Assembly (NCBI RefSeq): GCF_019635155.1
Contig: NZ_JAHBZY010000015.1
Location: 21,865-85,864, forward strand
DNA length: 64,000 nt
From: Nitrosomonas sp.
GTDB lineage: Bacteria > Pseudomonadota > Gammaproteobacteria > Burkholderiales > Nitrosomonadaceae
Direction of reading: 5' to 3'
Within the stretch, counting starts at the first letter, position 1; each line of letters opens with the position of its first letter. Both the position numbers and the translations under genes were made by a program. A model generated the notes under the pieces. It was not told where the DNA came from, made no database searches, and worked only from the letters and a program-made list of their open reading frames with translations. Positions 2,616 through 11,055 of this stretch are shown piece by piece.

Positions 2616-2893
2616 TTTAGATATCCTTTGTAGTAATTAGTCATTTGATCATAAGTTCTATCTCATACTTGCCATATTCAAAGTAACTCAAGGAAAGGGC
2701 AAACATTGCCAAGGCCTTCTCTATCAATTTATCAATTCCCTAATACGATAAAAATAAACTCGGCGTTAGGATTCTAACACTACTTTTCTGTACCTCAGAT
2801 AGTAATTCTCCATTTTTTGCTGAGCGATGCGGCAATTTTCTTTACAAGCATCTGGGAGCGCAGCACCTTGCGCCTAACCATTTACCCCAAAAC

Positions 2894-2917
2894 GACAATG
2901 CCCTTCGATTATTACAC
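2894..2917. repeat. degenerate REP-like palindromic repeat
   Basis: This 24-bp stretch is a diverged copy of the hairpin at 8591-8617 (shared core AATGCCCTTCG followed by ATTATT/GTTATT). The stop codon of the FGE-type gene (2912-2914) lies inside it, so the gene's present 3' end runs into the repeat. Confidence 0.5.
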
Positions 2918-5857
2918 TCCATCGCCTATTCCCTCGCAGTCCATCCCCCGCTTGTCCCCAGCGCGGCTGCCAATCGGCTGCTGGCCTGCTCCGAGCACCC
3001 GGCTTGGCTTGAGCTCATGACCTCGGGCAAGGCGAAAGCCAATGCGGCGGCTGCGAAGGGACGGATCGTCGTAGTAGCGGTAAGCAGAACGACAGTCCCT
3101 GCCGCCGTCGATCCACGAGCCGCCGCGCAGCACGCGGTAGGCGCCTGATTCCGGCCCTTGCGGGTCGATGACTCGCTCCGCTGGATACTCGTCATACCTG
3201 TCCTGACACCATTCCCATACGTTGCCGTGCATCTCATACAATCCCCAAGCATTCGACGCATAACTTCTAACCGCCGCGGTTTGCTGCAAAGCGCCTTCAC
3301 CCCAATTATCATAATCATCCCAAGTACCGCGATAATTCGCTTTATCAAGCGCAATGTCAGAACCAAAATGAAACGCTGATTCAGTTCCCGTCCGGCAAGC
3401 ATTTTCCCATTCGGCTTCAGTGGGTAAGCGCAACTGCAACTGCGGGTGGCTGTTATTGAGCTGTTTCAGGAAATTTTGCACATCTTCCCAACTGACTGAC
3501 TCCACCGGCAATTGCTCTCGTTTGAAACTGCTCGGATTCTTGCGCATCACTGCCTGCCATAGTTCCTGCGTGCAAACCGTTTCCGCAAGCCAATAACCTT
3601 GCGTGAGAATAACTGGATGTTGATGTTCCCAGTCATAACGCCCTGCTTCATTTGCCGGAGAACCCATCATAAAATTATTCGGCTCGATCCAGCGGAAACG
3701 CTGGATGACGCCAGAGACTTCAGCGTCGGCGTAGAAGCCGTATTGGTCACGGCCTGCATTGGTTGCCCAATCCGGTTTATGTGCTGCTCCCTCATACACA
3801 GGCAAATAGAACCAGAAGCCTGGTAGCATGCCTTCACCGTCTCGCCATTCAGGCGGATGCCAGTACCAGCGGTAGACATTACCTTTGTTATCCATCGATT
3901 CTGCATTTAAACCACCGGTTGTATTGGCGATCAATATCGCCCAATCAGGTTTGGTAAAACGCTCTACGGTTAATTCTTCTCCATCAATGTGCAGCTTTTG
4001 TTTCTCCTGTTCATCCAGCGTAAATTCATATTGATCGATTTTGCTTAACGGTAATAAAGTATTACTGGATGCTCCCAAAGCTCCGACATGCTGACGCAAC
4101 ATACAAGACGATGATGTAACAAACTCAGCCAGCACACTGCCCAATCTAAATCCATCCGTTTCTTCCTGGAATCGATCAGACGTGGTCAGTTTTAGCTCTC
4201 TAACTCCCTGTTGATAAAGAATAAAGGTTTGCTGCTTGGATGTTTCTGTTTCAAGAAATGACATAACAGTCTGCATATCCCAGTCATCCGGTATAACGAC
4301 TTCACTGTTTATACCCTGCTTACCCAGACGGCTTGCCCAGATAGCCTGATAACATGAATTCTTGGATAGTACTTCATCATGCTGCCTATCCAAAAGATTC
4401 TCGAGAAAAGACGGCAGCGTCGGTATTTCCTGTTTCTGTTCAATAGATGCTTTTATCAATTCGCACATAGCTAGCCGTGCAGATTCGATTTCTTCACGAT
4501 CATCCGCATCAAGATTCTCTTTCATTAACTGCTCAAGAATTAACAGCTCTTCATCACGCTGCGTTTGAAACACATGCCGATGGTAACGCCGAATCATGCG
4601 GGAAATGATTCTTGCCAGTTCCGGATTCTCTTGTGCCATGCTCATGAACTGCTGCCGATATTCTTTCAAGGTATCCGGTTTATAATAAAAACCCAACGGT
4701 GTTGGCACGACATTTTCATGATGCCACGCCGCCAATTCATGACCGATGTCAACTTCTGAAAGCGGCAAACAATGACGAATCGCTCTTAATAATGCTGGTT
4801 CCACCAGCTTAGCCGGTGACAACCAGGCCAGCAACTGTTTGGCACCGCCGGCATCCTTCTGCATTGGCGTTTCGACGCTATTATCCGGCGGTGGCACATA
4901 TCTTACAGGCGATAGTTGACTATTCCTGTCCCAACAAACGCAATCAAAAAGGCCTATTAAGTCCGGCGCCAGGTAACGTTCTGGCACAGGTACTAACGCT
5001 ACCGTGCGACAACCGGCCTGGCGCAGCAGATTGCCTACTCTCAGCCAAGAACGTAAAGCCATTCCTGTTCTATCCAGCAACCCCAAATCACTTAGGACAA
5101 ACACCGTATTGCCTGCAACAGGTGCTTTCCATTGTTTGTTGACAATGGCTTTACCTTGAACAATTTGCACATTACCACCAGGCCGCTGCAGGATTTTTTG
5201 AATGACCAATCCCGTTCCGCCTCGTAATTTCTCTAATTGATGTAAGACTTGATTGTAATCACGATTGAACAAATGAGTTCGCTGTGGCCTGTCAACCAGC
5301 ACCTGAACCGATGCCGCCCAACGGCGACGTGTCCGGCGTGGTATTTTTTGCAATAACAAGCCATTTGCCATCGTTTTGATAATACGCGGCATATCCGGTT
5401 GCCGCGTTACTTTAGTCTCGCTAAGCAATGACCTTAACACTGGCCATAATCTGGACCATGGCACCAGAGGTTCTTTGTACGGTGGCTGATCAGATGGTCG
5501 ATGCATGGCTGCCGGATTCAATCGTTTAGCTTCTTGATACCAGCGCGGCTTGGGTAATGCATTTATGCTTGCTGGTTCTGGGAGTAAGCTGCTTCCCTTT
5601 CTTTCTGTAATCGCGTAATAAACGGCTTGCGTTTTTTTTTGCGGCGCCGGTATTGGCTCTATGGTAATTTTATGTGGAAATGGCTTATTTGATTGATCCT
5701 GTACTAGCGACGGCAAGATCAGTTGTACTTTCTTTCGAGGCGGGGCAACGTATCCGCTATATTCTGCAACCGTATCCAGCGCGTCGCCACCCAGTTGCTT
5801 TAGTGCACGTAATAAATCAGCCCGGTTCAACCGCTTTGCGGACTGGTAGGCATGCAT
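2912..5857 (-). CDS. vWA-like/FGE-sulfatase (C-type-lectin fold) fusion, candidate DGR variable protein
   Basis: About 981 residues. Residues ~183-300 have alternating strands (ASVQVLVDRPQR, NTVFVLSDLGLLD) that resemble a von Willebrand A fold with a degenerate MIDAS. The middle (~340-710) is a unique, partly helical region. Residues ~715-947 form a formylglycine-generating-enzyme-type domain (FMMGSP, LPTEAEWENACR, GNVWEWCQD, RGGSW, GFRLARG). Only one of the two catalytic FGE cysteines remains, so ligand binding rather than sulfatase activation is inferred. The last ~35 residues come from reading through a conserved repeat trailer after a 1-nt loss relative to the second copy. ATG 5857 overlaps the MoxR stop (TGATG). 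An in-frame GTG at 5860 is the alternative start. It is the last gene of the TIR-MoxR operon. Confidence 0.8.
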   Translation of the reverse strand: MHAYQSAKRLNRADLLRALKQLGGDALDTVAEYSGYVAPPRKKVQLILPSLVQDQSNKPFPHKITIEPIPAPQKKTQAVYYAITERKGSSLLPEPASINALPKPRWYQEAKRLNPAAMHRPSDQPPYKEPLVPWSRLWPVLRSLLSETKVTRQPDMPRIIKTMANGLLLQKIPRRTRRRWAASVQVLVDRPQRTHLFNRDYNQVLHQLEKLRGGTGLVIQKILQRPGGNVQIVQGKAIVNKQWKAPVAGNTVFVLSDLGLLDRTGMALRSWLRVGNLLRQAGCRTVALVPVPERYLAPDLIGLFDCVCWDRNSQLSPVRYVPPPDNSVETPMQKDAGGAKQLLAWLSPAKLVEPALLRAIRHCLPLSEVDIGHELAAWHHENVVPTPLGFYYKPDTLKEYRQQFMSMAQENPELARIISRMIRRYHRHVFQTQRDEELLILEQLMKENLDADDREEIESARLAMCELIKASIEQKQEIPTLPSFLENLLDRQHDEVLSKNSCYQAIWASRLGKQGINSEVVIPDDWDMQTVMSFLETETSKQQTFILYQQGVRELKLTTSDRFQEETDGFRLGSVLAEFVTSSSCMLRQHVGALGASSNTLLPLSKIDQYEFTLDEQEKQKLHIDGEELTVERFTKPDWAILIANTTGGLNAESMDNKGNVYRWYWHPPEWRDGEGMLPGFWFYLPVYEGAAHKPDWATNAGRDQYGFYADAEVSGVIQRFRWIEPNNFMMGSPANEAGRYDWEHQHPVILTQGYWLAETVCTQELWQAVMRKNPSSFKREQLPVESVSWEDVQNFLKQLNNSHPQLQLRLPTEAEWENACRTGTESAFHFGSDIALDKANYRGTWDDYDNWGEGALQQTAAVRSYASNAWGLYEMHGNVWEWCQDRYDEYPAERVIDPQGPESGAYRVLRGGSWIDGGRDCRSAYRYYDDPSLRSRRIGFRLARGHELKPSRVLGAGQQPIGSRAGDKRGMDCEGIGDGV
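2931..3166 (-). repeat. candidate DGR variable region 1 plus conserved trailer
   Basis: This segment matches 9371-9620. Variable codons occupy 3041-3112 (24 codons). Flanks on the 5' coding side differ only synonymously from copy 2, and the first 23 nt after the variable part are identical. The trailer 2931-3037 is largely conserved. It has lost the GC-rich hairpin present in copy 2, and it lacks one nucleotide at the point where copy 2 has its stop codon. Confidence 0.7.
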
Positions 5858-6978
5858 CACTCAGATGCCTCGTTTACTTCTTGCGCATCTTTTCTATTTT
5901 GCACTTTGCTATCAATCTGCTTTTGCATCCCTGGATATTTCTTCAACGCAAAATCTTTAATCGTTTTTAGCAGTTCCTTTTGCTGTTCTGTATCATTGGG
6001 CACGAGCTCATCGAGCACACGCAGCATATCCAGATACTCAGCCTGGCCGGGCGGGGTCACACCCAGACTATTCGCTTCCAGTCGATCTTTGAATAGCTGA
6101 TCTGCTGCTTCTTGCAGCACATCTTCATGCAATCGGCATTTTTGTAACGGTACATCATTTTCATCACGCTGAATCTCGGTATCACTTTCTGATTCACCCT
6201 TTTTCATAACAGGAAAATGAAAAACAGCCCGTTCTTTTAATCTCCGAATCAACTCGTTTCTTTCTTTTGGCAATTGTAAATCCAACACAAGGCACCGGCG
6301 AATAAAGGCACCTGGCAATTGTCGATCTTCATTGGTCGTCAGCACGACTAGCGGACGGTTTGCCAATTCACCATGCGCCACACCAACTGTTTTCTTGATC
6401 CAGGGCACAGTAAATTGTCCATTGTCCAAGGTCTCCAACAAACTGTTGGGAAGATCGGCATCGGCTTTATCGATTTCATCGAGCAGCAGAACAATGCCTT
6501 TTTTCTCATCGCCCGGATCGTTTACATCCGGTATGAAAAAAGGATGCTTCCCTTTCTTACTGGATGCATCGTTCCAGTCAAAAGCCCACCAGAGTATACC
6601 GGGACTTAAGTATTCTTCTGGATTCAGCATCTGGTCGATTTGTCCATCACTTTTATTTTTGCCTATGGCGCTCAATACCTGGGCATTCCCCAACCGGCTA
6701 ACCGCATCGAAGCGATACCATAAATCCTGTATTTCGGTGTGCGCATCGACGACATGCGACAAAAACTTGCGCCCCAGCACTTTAGCTGCCGCCCGCGCCA
6801 ACTGGCTTTTCCCTGTGCCAGGCTCACCCCGCACCAGCAGCGGTCGCCCTGACGCCAGTGCTGCACGTACCGCCTGTGCTGTTCTTTCATCAAAAACATG
6901 TACGCTTTTACGCCATGTTCCTATCGCAGGCAAAACATGCTTGATGTCGACAAAAGCTTTAAGTCCAGGAATTTTCAT
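5857..6978 (-). CDS. MoxR-type AAA+ ATPase
   Basis: 373 residues. Walker A is GEPGTGKSQ (51-59), Walker B LLLDEID (164-170), sensor 1 LTTN (213-216) and an arginine-finger region FIRRC (225-229). MoxR-like ATPases act as chaperones or remodellers, typically together with a vWA-domain partner. Here that partner would be the vWA-like/FGE protein encoded directly downstream, with overlapping stop and start codons. The TIR gene ends 3 bp upstream of this start. The three-gene arrangement resembles the NTP-dependent MoxR-vWA-effector conflict systems known from comparative genomics. No obvious Shine-Dalgarno precedes ATG 6978, consistent with translational coupling. Confidence 0.85.
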   Translation of the reverse strand: MKIPGLKAFVDIKHVLPAIGTWRKSVHVFDERTAQAVRAALASGRPLLVRGEPGTGKSQLARAAAKVLGRKFLSHVVDAHTEIQDLWYRFDAVSRLGNAQVLSAIGKNKSDGQIDQMLNPEEYLSPGILWWAFDWNDASSKKGKHPFFIPDVNDPGDEKKGIVLLLDEIDKADADLPNSLLETLDNGQFTVPWIKKTVGVAHGELANRPLVVLTTNEDRQLPGAFIRRCLVLDLQLPKERNELIRRLKERAVFHFPVMKKGESESDTEIQRDENDVPLQKCRLHEDVLQEAADQLFKDRLEANSLGVTPPGQAEYLDMLRVLDELVPNDTEQQKELLKTIKDFALKKYPGMQKQIDSKVQNRKDAQEVNEASE

Positions 6979-6981
6979 AAG

Positions 6982-8535
6982 TTATGTGTACTTGTTAAAT
7001 GTTTTAAGAAATTCTTCTATTGCACTCATCAAATCGAATTCAATTCCACCAAAAGAAGATTGAGTCATATTTTTATCTTTTATACCAAAACGCACCAATG
7101 GGATTTCAAGCTGCATCAAAAAATTTTCACAAATTTTCCGATAGGAATCATCGCCACCGTCCTCAAATTTAATAGCCACACAATATTTTTTTGGATCGTG
7201 CTCTATTTCACGCAATGTATTGATTTTAGCTTTTAATCTTTCTAAATCATCTTCATCTAATAACTGCTCTCGTTCATCGTCCATAATAATATTCCAGATA
7301 ATACGTTTTACTTCATCCAGACGAACTTGCTCATGCCAAGTCAGTGGATTTGTATCTATAAAGATCAGATGCTTACCAGTGATCTCGTGACCATCAATAG
7401 TAACCGTCGCTTTTCTTTCCTGTTGCCTGGCGATAAACAACTCTACGCCACCCAATGTCCGTACACGCAGCTCAAAATAAAACCCGTGAAGATCATCATT
7501 TAACCAATCCGACACATCACGCGCATCATCTTCAACAACAAGACTCAGCACAAGATAACCTAAAATCTGCTCAATTTTTTCTATGATATTCTTTTGATAA
7601 GGAATCGCTTTCTCAAAAATCTGCCCACCTTTCTCTTTATCCAGACACATGACGACGGTGTTAGTCAGTACTTTATTGATAACCGGGCATTTTTTACCGC
7701 CAAGCTGCAATGCAGTGATTAGATTTTCTGCGATATCTTTAGCATTACATTCAATTTGATCCCTTTCAAGCATCACCAAAACTTTATTTAATTCTCCATA
7801 TAGAACCTGCTTACATACCGCCATTGCATCGCCCGAGAGTGTTTCAGCAATATGCTTCTGTATAACTTGGATATATTTGTCTTGGAATTTCGGAGTGGGT
7901 CGAGCAGTCTTTTTTTCGTCTCTAACAAGTGGATTAGATTCATCTGGCTCGATGAAATCTCTGATTCCATTTTTTAAAGGGCTTATTTTGTTAAGAATTT
8001 GAGAGTAATGCTGTGCTTTGAGTTGATCCAGCGGTGTTGTTAGGCGATTTGCAGCAAAATCTAGCAATTCATCAAGCGCTTGACTTATATCGCGATACAG
8101 AACTGATTTATCAATCAATTTTCTTCTATTCTTTGAATTCTTATCACTTAATATTCCATCTGCTTCTTTTTCTTTAGCTTCCCAATAAGAAATAATGTCA
8201 TCGTGATACTTGTCATCTCCTAATTTGCAATTAACATCGATAAACAATGCATGAGTACGTTCGTTGAAACCTCCTTTTCTCCATATTGCTAACAATTCAT
8301 ACATACACCAAGTAGAGCGAAAATAATCATCGCTAAATATCGTAATGATGTGCTCACCGCCACTCAATCGATCCATAAAATCTCTGATCAAATCGCCGTG
8401 CTGCATCTCGTTTTTATCGCGAATCAAGTTGATATTACGACGCTGGTGGCATAGCCCCTCCAATTCATCCACAACACGTGTATGCTTTTCGTGCGCCCAC
8501 GAATATGAAACAAAAACGTTAACTGGTTTTGTCAT
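6982..8535 (-). CDS. TIR-domain protein, candidate effector of MoxR/FGE operon
   Basis: 517 residues. The N-terminal ~140 residues form a TIR domain: VNVFVSYSWAHEKH at the first strand, IITIFSDDYFRSTWCMYEL around 63-81, with Glu80 in the WCxxEL position used as catalytic Glu by NADase TIRs. Residues ~150-517 are not recognised. They are charged, mixed alpha/beta, without membrane segments, and may be the adaptor part that meets the MoxR and vWA partners. TIR effectors in bacterial conflict systems usually cleave NAD+ on activation, and NADase activity here is inferred from the motif. First gene of a three-gene minus-strand operon. Local base composition is more AT-rich than in flanking core genes. 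Confidence 0.8.
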   Translation of the reverse strand: MTKPVNVFVSYSWAHEKHTRVVDELEGLCHQRRNINLIRDKNEMQHGDLIRDFMDRLSGGEHIITIFSDDYFRSTWCMYELLAIWRKGGFNERTHALFIDVNCKLGDDKYHDDIISYWEAKEKEADGILSDKNSKNRRKLIDKSVLYRDISQALDELLDFAANRLTTPLDQLKAQHYSQILNKISPLKNGIRDFIEPDESNPLVRDEKKTARPTPKFQDKYIQVIQKHIAETLSGDAMAVCKQVLYGELNKVLVMLERDQIECNAKDIAENLITALQLGGKKCPVINKVLTNTVVMCLDKEKGGQIFEKAIPYQKNIIEKIEQILGYLVLSLVVEDDARDVSDWLNDDLHGFYFELRVRTLGGVELFIARQQERKATVTIDGHEITGKHLIFIDTNPLTWHEQVRLDEVKRIIWNIIMDDEREQLLDEDDLERLKAKINTLREIEHDPKKYCVAIKFEDGGDDSYRKICENFLMQLEIPLVRFGIKDKNMTQSSFGGIEFDLMSAIEEFLKTFNKYT

Positions 8536-8590
8536 TTACGCACTCATTGGTTTAATCGATTTTTGGATTGTACTGCAGGAAAAGTCGTAA

Positions 8591-8617
8591 GGTGCAATGC
8601 CCTTCGGTTATTGCACC
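8591..8617. repeat. REP-like hairpin
   Basis: GGTGCAAT (8591-8598) and ATTGCACC (8610-8617) form a perfect 8-bp stem around an 11-nt loop, 56 bp upstream of the TIR gene start. A diverged copy lies at 2894-2917 at the far end of the same operon. Confidence 0.6.
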
Positions 8618-8751
8618 CTATAGTCTTAAGAGAATTCTTTTTCCACATACGGTGAGTTACATCTGTATTCCGAAAATACTCATAGTCAATAATTCAATAC
8701 CGTTGTTTTAAAACATAATTGTAACGCCAGTTACATACTCTGGGGGCGTTG

Positions 8752-8765
8752 CCGTGCAAAGGTCT
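8752..8765 (+). repeat. solo terminal repeat of the MITE-like family
   Basis: CCGTGCAAAGGTCT matches 14 of the 16 bases of the right terminal repeat of the element at 1257-1397. No partner repeat is found within the intergenic space to its left, so this is a remnant. It lies 25 bp upstream of the HigB start and may contribute to that promoter region. Confidence 0.6.
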
Positions 8766-8790
8766 TATGAAAATGATTATAATAAAAATC

Positions 8791-9069
8791 ATGATCAAAT
8801 CATTCAAGCATAAAGGATTGCAGCAATTTTTCGAAAGCGGCAATTGCGCCGGTATCATTCCGGCACACCAAACAAAATTAAGGATGAGATTGGTTGCATT
8901 GGATACCGCCACTGGTATCGAGGACATGCGTTTGCCCGGTTTTGATCTGCATGCATTGAAAGGCGACAAAGCAGGATTATGGGCAATTCGCGTTAACAAA
9001 AACTGGCGCATCACTTTCGAGTTTTCTGACGGCAATGCGACCATCGTCAATTACGAGGATTATCACTGA
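8791..9069 (+). CDS. higB: HigB-like type II toxin (RelE superfamily mRNA interferase)
   Basis: Encodes about 92 residues starting MIKSFKHKGLQQFFESG, the usual N-terminus of the HigB/plasmid-maintenance-killer family. In-frame ATGs at 8749, 8767 and 8773 would add residues that are atypical for the family. The C-terminal half (LHALKGDKAGLWAIRVNKNWRITFEF) carries the conserved basic RelE-fold residues. HigB toxins cleave mRNA on the ribosome. The toxin precedes the antitoxin, as in other hig operons. The stop overlaps the next gene's ATG (ATGA). Confidence 0.85.
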   Translation: MIKSFKHKGLQQFFESGNCAGIIPAHQTKLRMRLVALDTATGIEDMRLPGFDLHALKGDKAGLWAIRVNKNWRITFEFSDGNATIVNYEDYH

Positions 9070-9359
9070 TGAGTATGCACAATCCACCGCACCCCGGCGA
9101 ATTTATTCGCGAAGTCTATCTTGAGCCGTTGGGTATTAGTTACCGGGCTGTCGCGCTGAAACTGCATGTATCGCCATCGACATTTCATCGGATCGTTCAA
9201 GGCCGCGGCAGCATCAGTTCCGAGATGGCATTGCGACTATCAAAAACACTCGGCCGTAGCCCGGAAAGCTGGCTGGCGATGCAAAGCAACTACGATCTCT
9301 GGCAAACAAAACAGCGCGTCAATCTCGACGAAGTTGAAAAATTAGCGATTTTGGGTTAA
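9069..9359 (+). CDS. higA: HigA-like antitoxin (XRE helix-turn-helix)
   Basis: 96 residues beginning MHNPPHPGEFIREVYLEPLGIS after two leading residues, the hallmark start of HigA/VapI antitoxins. Helix-turn-helix is about 20-60 (YRAVALKLHVSPSTFHRIVQG). It neutralises HigB and represses the shared promoter in related systems. The start overlaps the toxin stop by one base. The gene ends 12 bp before the conserved trailer of the second FGE-type gene, which converges from the other side. Confidence 0.88.
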   Translation: MSMHNPPHPGEFIREVYLEPLGISYRAVALKLHVSPSTFHRIVQGRGSISSEMALRLSKTLGRSPESWLAMQSNYDLWQTKQRVNLDEVEKLAILG

Positions 9360-9370
9360 TTCGCTGAGCC

Positions 9371-9620
9371 TCCCCGCAGTCCATCCCCCGCTTGTCCCCC
9401 GCGCGCTCCGCCAGCGCGGCTGCCAATCGGCTGCTGGCCTGCTCCACTGCCTTGACTTGGCTTGAGCTCATTGACCTCGGGCAAGGCGAAAGCCAAAGTT
9501 GATGAAGCGATGGGACGGATCGTCGCGGTAGCGGTGAGCAGAACGACAGTACCCGCCGCGGTCGAACCACGAGCCGCCGCGCAGCACGCGGTAGGCGCCC
9601 GATTCCGGGCCTTGCGGGTC
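9371..9620 (-). repeat. candidate DGR variable region 2 plus conserved trailer
   Basis: Second copy of the repeat at 2931-3166. The variable stretch is 9495-9566 (24 codons). It differs from copy 1 at 15 nucleotides in 11 codons, all at codon position 1 or 2, none at position 3. The trailer continues about 100 bp past the stop codon, which is more conservation than noncoding 3' sequence normally shows and fits an initiation-of-mutagenic-homing type element. Confidence 0.7.
9399..9419. other. GC-rich hairpin in the trailer of variable region 2
   Basis: CCGCGC (9399-9404) and GCGCGG (9414-9419) form a 6-bp stem with a 9-nt loop, about 50 bp after the gene's stop. DGR target sites often carry a hairpin just downstream of the variable repeat that stimulates retrohoming. 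The equivalent position in copy 1 is deleted. Confidence 0.45.
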
Positions 9621-10274
9621 CGTGACTGGTTGCGATGGATAATCGCCCAACCAATCCTGGCACCATTCCCAAACATTACCATGCATTTGGTGCAGCCCCC
9701 AGTCGTTGCACGGTAATTCCTTCACCGCCACCGTTTGTTTCCGGTATTCGCTGTTGCTGCCATTGTTGTATGGGTAATTGCCATCGAAATTTACATACCT
9801 TGAGTCGATCTGATCGCCCCAACTGAACGGCGTAGTGGTTCCGGCACGGCAGGCGTACTCCCATTGCGCTTCCGTCGGCAGGCACAACTTCAATTCCGCT
9901 TTCATATCATTCATCTTACTGATGAAGGCTTGTGCATCATGCCAATTAACATTTTCCACCGGGTTCTCATCACCTTTAAATTCGCTGGGATTTTCGCCCA
10001 TGATCACTTGCCACAACGTTTGCGTCACCGGCGTATCCGCAATCCAGAAACCTTTGGTCAGAGTAACTTCTTGTTGCAATTCATCTTCATAACGTTCCGG
10101 TTCATCGCTTGGCGAACCCATCAAAAATGTTCCCGGCTCGCACCAGCGGAACGCTTGCCGCACGCCTTTGTACGTGAATGCCATCCACAGCCCGAATTCA
10201 TCCTCGCCCCAATCGGATGCCCACGCTTCGGGGAATTCTTCGGGGAAAATAGTGTGTTGACGGATTTTGAACAT
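9468..10274 (-). CDS. FGE-sulfatase (C-type-lectin fold) protein, candidate DGR variable protein
   Basis: 268 residues, essentially a stand-alone FGE-type domain: FLMGSPSDEPERYEDELQ, NPVENVNWHDAQAF, LPTEAQWEYACRAGT, HGNVWEWCQDW, YRVLRGGSW and the end GFRLARGQ. The FGE Cys pair is reduced to one Cys (12 residues after RGG), so a ligand-display role is more likely than formylglycine formation. The 24 codons before GFRLARG are the hypervariable segment shared with the larger protein at 2912-5857. ATG 10274 lies 1 bp after the stop of the DUF5995-like gene, implying coupling. No signal peptide is seen. Confidence 0.85.
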   Translation of the reverse strand: MFKIRQHTIFPEEFPEAWASDWGEDEFGLWMAFTYKGVRQAFRWCEPGTFLMGSPSDEPERYEDELQQEVTLTKGFWIADTPVTQTLWQVIMGENPSEFKGDENPVENVNWHDAQAFISKMNDMKAELKLCLPTEAQWEYACRAGTTTPFSWGDQIDSRYVNFDGNYPYNNGSNSEYRKQTVAVKELPCNDWGLHQMHGNVWEWCQDWLGDYPSQPVTDPQGPESGAYRVLRGGSWFDRGGYCRSAHRYRDDPSHRFINFGFRLARGQ

Positions 10275-10275
10275 A

Positions 10276-11055
10276 TCATTCCAGAATTTCGATGCGTTGA
10301 CGCGTTGTGCCGCGTTCTCCCAGGCGGATGATGCCGATGATAAGTGAGCCGTAAAAACCCGGATGGGAGATCACATCGGAGAACAATGCCATCATCTCGT
10401 CTTTTTCCAGAATTGCCTGTTGCCGTTGCGATTCCGTGAGTGGAGACAATTTCTCCGCGAATAACCAGGCGGCGTTGCGGGCTTTTTCCATGCTGAAATT
10501 GATAAGAGCGGTCTGTACCGATCCCAAAAAACGGTTAAGCAATCCGAAGACCGGCCAGATTTCCGCCAGTTCGCTTTGCACGTCACCTACCAAATCGGCC
10601 AGCACTTTATTGATCTTCTCGAAATCACCCTTGAGGTTTTGCAATTCTTCCGGCGGCACGGTTTCCGCCGCGGCGATGCCCAGATCCAGATTGATATGCG
10701 CATTCATGCCCAATAACAAATGTTGCAATACAATCGGCCACCATTGTTGCGTGGCGTCGAATGCCCGCACCCACGATTTCGTCGGCGTTTGATCGGTAAA
10801 ATGCAGATAGCAGGCGCGAATATAGCGATTGGCGAAAATCACATCGAGACGTTCCATGCGCAGGCCATCGTCGAAGTAACTTTGCTCGATACCTTTTTTG
10901 ACTTGAATGGTTACCTTGCGATACAGCGCCGCAAAATAGCCCATGCGTGAGTTGTTTTGTTTGGACCATTCGACAATGGCGGTTAATTGCGCAATGACTT
11001 CGTCAATGGTTGTAGCTGGTGTTGCAATCACGTAGGGAAAGCTATTGGGCGGCAT
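10276..11055 (-). CDS. DUF5995-like protein of unknown function
   Basis: 259 residues, largely helical, no membrane segments. Features that recall the DUF5995 family are GLRMERLDVIFANRYIRACY near 84-103, paired Trp residues, and LLLGMNAHINLDLGIAAAE, with conserved His/Asn/Asp that could form an active or metal site. A good Shine-Dalgarno (AAGGAG) precedes ATG 11055. It is translationally coupled to the downstream FGE-type variable protein, so the two probably work together. It could be the enzymatic or scaffold partner of a diversified binding protein. No biochemical role can be read from the sequence. Confidence 0.6.
   Translation of the reverse strand: MPPNSFPYVIATPATTIDEVIAQLTAIVEWSKQNNSRMGYFAALYRKVTIQVKKGIEQSYFDDGLRMERLDVIFANRYIRACYLHFTDQTPTKSWVRAFDATQQWWPIVLQHLLLGMNAHINLDLGIAAAETVPPEELQNLKGDFEKINKVLADLVGDVQSELAEIWPVFGLLNRFLGSVQTALINFSMEKARNAAWLFAEKLSPLTESQRQQAILEKDEMMALFSDVISHPGFYGSLIIGIIRLGERGTTRQRIEILE

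Follow-up and report, generated by a model that had tools for sequence, protein, structure and literature searches.

Two FGE-sulfatase genes and their variable repeats

The window, a 64,000-nucleotide stretch of a Nitrosomonas sp. contig (NZ_JAHBZY010000015.1), carries two genes with FGE-sulfatase domains, here called A and B, both on the minus strand. Gene A (2912-5860) encodes a protein of 982 amino acids with a C-terminal FGE-sulfatase domain (residues 725-946; PF03781, E = 8e-40) that has a variable repeat at its end. Gene B (9468-10274) encodes 268 amino acids with an FGE-sulfatase / C-type-lectin fold (PF03781, E = 1.1e-46). A MoxR-like AAA ATPase gene lies beside A (5857-6978, minus strand; AAA_5, E = 1.3e-13), followed by a gene for a TIR-domain protein (6982-8535, minus strand; TIR_2, E = 2.5e-8). 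A small HTH protein gene (9069-9359, plus strand) sits directly behind the tail of B, where the congeneric genome G022 continues into the core of a diversity-generating retroelement (DGR). Upstream of B is a DUF5995 gene (10276-11055, minus strand), in the same order as in G022 and in N. oligotropha Nm45 (G064).

The predicted structure of B (pLDDT 95.3) matches 2Y3C, a variable protein of Treponema denticola, better than any other PDB entry, with human FGE ranking behind it, and the same DGR variable protein is also the best PDB match by sequence. Together with the Pfam FGE-sulfatase domains, this agrees with the C-type-lectin/FGE fold proposed in the initial annotation. The variable codons of A and B presumably form an exposed binding surface, as is generally the case in such proteins. 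The TIR, MoxR-like and FGE genes, by analogy, look like a conflict (defence) system. A Pfam search of A and the neighbouring genes found no vWA domain.

The variable repeats, the stretches homologous to a DGR template, span 3019-3136 in A and 9473-9590 in B, both on the minus strand. Within them, two sets of 24 equivalent codons (3041-3112 and 9495-9566, minus strand) differ at 15 nucleotides in 11 codons, and our recount agrees to the base with the earlier one. All 15 changes are non-synonymous, with 10 at codon position 1, 5 at position 2 and none at position 3. The 18 codons before the variable stretch differ by two synonymous changes only, and the 23 nt after it are identical, both as previously described. 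No third position differs between A and B anywhere in the repeat. Of 190 aligned codons further upstream in the two genes, 100 differ non-synonymously and 39 of the 90 codons that encode the same residue carry a synonymous change. Third positions account for 111 of the 240 upstream differences versus 0 of 15 in the repeat (Fisher P = 1.9e-4), and the position bias is therefore local to the repeat.

The near-identical block of A and B runs past the template-homologous part into a tail of about 70 nt, which is conserved at loci of several species whether it is coding, as in A, or non-coding, as in B. Behind repeat A (2932-2992, minus strand) the tail is in frame in A, and behind repeat B (9369-9450, minus strand) it follows the stop codon of B. 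The copy behind A lacks 12 nt that are present in the one behind B. Homology to the tails of relatives stops at 2932, beside a possible decayed REP, and at 9369, beside the small HTH gene. At their 3' ends the window repeats read CGAGGTC and the G022 template reads CGAGCTC, a difference of the kind expected between a template and the putative IMH-like end of a DGR target. We looked for a hairpin with a GRNA loop behind the window repeats, and the folds there are no better than those of shuffled sequences (z = -0.19 and -1.28). A conserved hairpin in the tail was also considered and dropped, since covariation is weak, with double changes in just 2 of 16 predicted pairs. A search for structured RNA across 2800-9700 gave no Rfam match at E ≤ 1.

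A relative's template and the own assembly

G022 carries a DGR at the matching locus, consisting of a reverse transcriptase (RT), a template and two targets. Its neighbourhood runs mdh, DUF5995 and an FGE gene, then an HRDC accessory gene, a 341-amino-acid RT, a non-coding template and a second FGE gene. The order mdh - DUF5995 - FGE is common to G022 and the window, and the DGR core is found in G022 only. The two G022 repeats match their own template at 70/70 and 69/70 non-A sites and differ from it at 16/26 and 15/26 A sites, which is the pattern that a DGR should give. The HRDC accessory gene of G022 (L075:9979-10473, minus strand) is interrupted by an in-frame stop after 35 codons, and a 117-amino-acid ORF lies behind it, so that even this reference DGR may not be fully working.

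Sorted by the base in the G022 template, the differences between A and B fall on 14 of 26 A, 0 of 23 G, 0 of 14 T and 1 of 33 C (Fisher P = 5e-9), leaving 69 of the 70 non-A positions identical between the two genes. This concentration on template adenines, 14/26 against 1/70, upholds the initial claim that neither drift nor ordinary selection produces the pattern. The accompanying prediction of A at all 15 variable sites holds for 14 of them when read from this relative's template, with a C at offset 63. The more distant templates of two further genomes, G083 and G106, have A at 12 and 13 of the 15 sites. A and B also share six third-position differences from the G022 template and so go back to a single template within their own lineage.

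The own assembly (3.09 Mb, 49 contigs, rated 100% complete) was searched for both components. There was no RVT_1 match and no candidate for the G022 RT at E ≤ 10, and three DNA queries for the template returned nothing above noise besides A and B, with no third copy. The initial annotation had made its reading depend on an RT and a template in the genome; by that rule a DGR in the own genome fails, and the repeats are orphans. The missing RT and template count against a DGR within this assembly; they are no argument that the repeats arose without one. What stands of the DGR interpretation is the adenine-directed writing of the repeats, carried by 14 of 15 A sites and by the fold, and what falls is a resident element.

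Within the window, no remnant of the accessory gene was found at E ≤ 1e-2, and at E ≤ 20 the accessory gene and RT gave chance-level stretches only. As the window holds no such stub, we infer the loss here from the relatives. With the assembly in 49 contigs, an element could also have been missed. Among plasmids the G022 RT has no close relative (best 37% identity), and no DGR close to that of G022 was found on phages or viral contigs. A protein encoded on one viral contig (L243:4001-4885) is related to the G022 RT at 31% identity. Another contig, from IMG/VR (L248:282-301), carries the 20-nt core of the repeat without a mismatch, along with part of an FGE domain; the available 4 kb of it contain no RT.

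Orphan repeats and REP palindromes across the genus

We surveyed 85 congeneric genomes. A repeat match at E ≤ 1e-3 is present in 21 of them, and 12 have a strong one, whose best E is at most 3e-21 (G000, G002, G006, G016, G022, G026, G036, G064, G098, G100, G103 and G106). A class-1 RT, scoring over 340 bits, occurs in 4 of the 85 genomes (G022, G098, G106 and G083), while G019 has a more distant RT at 211 bits. In all four, the HRDC gene and the RT come directly after an FGE target gene, and the template comes after the RT. A class-1 RT with a fitting template is found in 2 of the 12 strong-repeat genomes, G022 and G098, the latter with a template truncated where its contig stops; nine of the 12 lack a class-1 RT. 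In G106, the RT and template lie on another contig, and the template disagrees with the genome's pair of class-1 repeats at 21 and 25 of 70 non-A sites, the count of 25 being inflated by an indel. An RVT_1 search of six RT-less genomes besides G006 (G000, G002, G016, G026, G036 and G064) gave no match. G000, G006, G026 and G064 are rated 100% complete; single absences weigh little in G098 (84%), G103 (89%, with 7% contamination), G036 (90%) and G100 (91%) because these genomes are incomplete.

The closed, single-contig genome G006 has four such repeats and neither a class-1 RT nor a fitting template; a different DGR, with its own repeats, is present. Differences among repeats were counted in a plain, ungapped mismatch scan, in which copies with indels (L083, L084, L142:10508 and L086:495) come out too different. 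By this count, three of the G006 repeats, one of them 2.4 Mb away, differ mutually at 0-1 non-A and 11-16 A sites, and the fourth at 10 non-A sites. Three of the four G100 repeats show 1-3 non-A differences, the fourth 14-15. Other sets are more eroded, with non-A differences numbering 5-9 among three of the four repeats of G002, 7 in G026, 16-19 in G064 and 12-19 in G103. Two more FGE genes of N. oligotropha Nm45 (L077:12401 and L077:5757) carry eroded repeats and represent stages of decay. Repeat genes vary in number and place across the genus. A second type of DGR also occurs (L092, L091 and L088 in G006, G022 and G009; L158 in G104), in which an RT of about 380-390 amino acids is flanked by FGE-type repeats with a template-like, A-rich copy.

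Fragments of the core remain in some of these genomes. In G100, the HRDC frame comes to an end at 72 codons, and behind it lie a REP palindrome and a gene for a REP-associated tyrosine transposase (RAYT). N. oligotropha Nm45 retains 28 HRDC codons (61% identity, E = 2e-6), and a degenerate REP (4 mismatches) comes next. Both stubs sit behind an A-type FGE gene, where the core would be expected, and truncated HRDC genes in two RT-less genomes indicate that the core was lost more than once. About 8 HRDC codons seem to be left in G103, judged by eye, and in G002 a REP and a RAYT gene come after the repeat.

The window itself contains one REP-type palindrome, GTGCAATNNCCNNNGGNNATTGCAC (8592-8616), which is situated between the two genes at a distance of 852 nt from repeat B and is the sole copy in the own assembly at ≤2 mismatches. 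The possible decayed REP at the 3' end of A (2893-2917) has 5 mismatches, a level reached at three places in the window and weak by itself; in its favour, a 74-nt stretch here matches a flank of N. oligotropha Nm45 that bears a REP, at 81%. G022 and N. oligotropha Nm45 have one GTGCAATNNCCNNNGGNNATTGCAC copy each, about 20 nt behind a repeat. A REP at ≤1 mismatch is present in 12/12 strong-repeat genomes versus 14/73 others (Fisher P = 7e-8, a value that overstates the link because one copy does not arise independently of another). Of the 51 REP copies in the full set of 21 repeat-bearing genomes, 24 lie within 2 kb of a repeat, where uniform placement predicts 0.37, and 10 lie within 35 nt, all on the 3' side. 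Common residence in a variable island could account for part of this association. REPs also commonly lie behind genes. Away from repeats we find the sole copy in G026 and in G036, 16 of 20 copies in G098 and 5 of 8 in G100, and three genomes (G019, G096 and G094) have several REPs though they lack class-1 repeats. The palindrome is not high in copy number, with one copy in the own assembly and 1-20 in the repeat-bearing genomes that have it.

In G100 and G106 the palindrome is tied to RAYT genes, whose products score 197.7 and 201 bits against NF047646 (cut-off 80) and match TnpAREP 4er8. RAYT genes occur in 60 of the 85 genomes at E ≤ 1e-10, and the own genome gave no match at that threshold. 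It is a tentative idea, with a small chance of proving right, that the REP/RAYT elements of the genus specifically colonise DGR target sites at about the position that a retrohoming hairpin would take and repeatedly delete the core, or that a REP substitutes as target hairpin. In G022, a repeat that is followed by a REP after 19 nt is still identical to its template at 70/70 non-A sites. We do not claim REPs as DGR hairpins, and their 3-nt loops vary (GAA, GGA, AAC, GCA). If the idea were true, deletion of the core by REP/RAYT would fix a hypervariable receptor gene, a switch from diversification to memory, and the link, if it holds, would connect two hairpin-based DNA systems. A literature search on DGRs with RAYT or extragenic palindromes found no paper linking REP/RAYT to DGR targets; the available text of one study names RAYT among the genes occasionally encountered next to RT genes of any kind (PMC8934634).

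Origin of the repeats and known systems

At the level of sequence, a DGR origin of both repeats is strongly supported. We consider it probable that A and B are former targets of one DGR whose core has since been lost from this genome. An error-prone RT would have copied an A-rich template with AAC codons and rewritten the last loop of both FGE/C-type-lectin domains. Template adenines would thereby have been randomised and the remaining positions homogenised, a process modelled on known DGRs for a pattern that is seen directly in the repeats. The core, with HRDC accessory gene, RT and template, would then have disappeared here, as it did separately in the relatives that retain stubs, and the receptors would remain as fixed variants inside the TIR / MoxR / FGE cluster. 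The loss junction lies at a REP in some relatives, with or without a RAYT gene, which makes REP activity or REP-REP recombination a possible cause.

It is unlikely that a DGR is still present and active, in cis or in trans, and escaped notice because it falls into a gap of the assembly, is carried by a plasmid or prophage, or exists in only part of the population. The assembly is a draft, and the lack of any third-position difference between A and B over the whole repeat is what recent rewriting would leave; the available text on Thiohalocapsa also describes loci broken in the reference that had intact population variants (PMC10907252). Against this, RT and template are missing from an assembly rated complete, A and B are both internal to a single contig in which other genes occupy the expected place of the core, the closed genome G006 presents the same picture, and the plasmid and viral matches to the G022 RT are distant. 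We regard it as quite improbable that A and B were acquired, or gene-converted from each other, after diversification in another genome, in a lineage that never had a DGR of its own. The extension of the near-identical block beyond the template into the tail, and the differing numbers and places of repeat genes across the genus, would fit such a history, but the place beside DUF5995 and mdh is common to the DGR-bearing G022, and gene conversion by itself has no means of generating differences at 14 A sites. A history with no retroelement involved, in which a binding loop diverged in the ordinary way or under positive selection, might explain why all differences are non-synonymous and confined to one loop region, yet is contradicted by their concentration on template adenines and is hardly credible.

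Under the preferred reading, loss of a DGR that once wrote both repeats, A and B look like frozen products of a lost diversification machine in sensor-like genes of a nitrifying bacterium, and relatives hold the retroelement intact or in fragments at the matching place. One locus thus shows an intact core, a truncated core and no core, which makes the fate of a diversified sensor after loss of its mutator directly testable. DGR surveys usually start from the reverse transcriptase, so targets that outlive their retroelement are easily missed.

Orphan DGR targets are already in print, as far as the available texts go, for T. denticola (PMC4891356) and for one cyanobacterial gene (PMC7517822). 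T. denticola isolates without RT and template retain DGR target genes, and the likeness extends to FGE/C-type-lectin targets (TvpA, PDB 2Y3C) and to repeats that differ from relatives' templates mostly at adenines (PMC4891356). In contrast, that system belongs to another phylum and the available text names no REP elements, whereas the Nitrosomonas genes are part of a TIR/MoxR cluster and the loss can be read from truncated accessory genes. The cyanobacterial gene all3226, with remnant template-repeat homology and no RT nearby, is likewise a DGR-type target outliving its core; unlike our case, it is one gene in one strain, with no REP palindromes mentioned in the text available, which does report single-strand (IS200/IS605) transposases near variable proteins (PMC7517822).

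Conflict systems diversified by DGRs have been described (PMC7159879, PMC10907252), and in the parts available to us they resemble the placement of A beside MoxR-like and TIR genes. MoxR-vWA conflict systems pair a MoxR ATPase with a vWA protein (PMC7159879, available text); here a MoxR-like gene is present, and A and the genes around it gave no vWA match in Pfam. Thiohalocapsa PB-PSB1 similarly has targets in putative conflict systems and loci without an intact RT; according to the portion available, it differs in having intact population variants or a second DGR that fits in trans, neither of which was found here, and the same source names Nitrosomonas among bacteria with multiple related DGRs (PMC10907252). 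The DGR of Bordetella phage BPP-1 shares the mutagenesis of template adenines (PMC3240598, in part). Its target has a hairpin 4-34 bp past the repeat, and REP hairpins occupy roughly this position in some of the relatives. Hairpins of the BPP-1 type have 4-nt GRNA loops, whereas the REP palindromes of the genus have variable loops of 3 nt.
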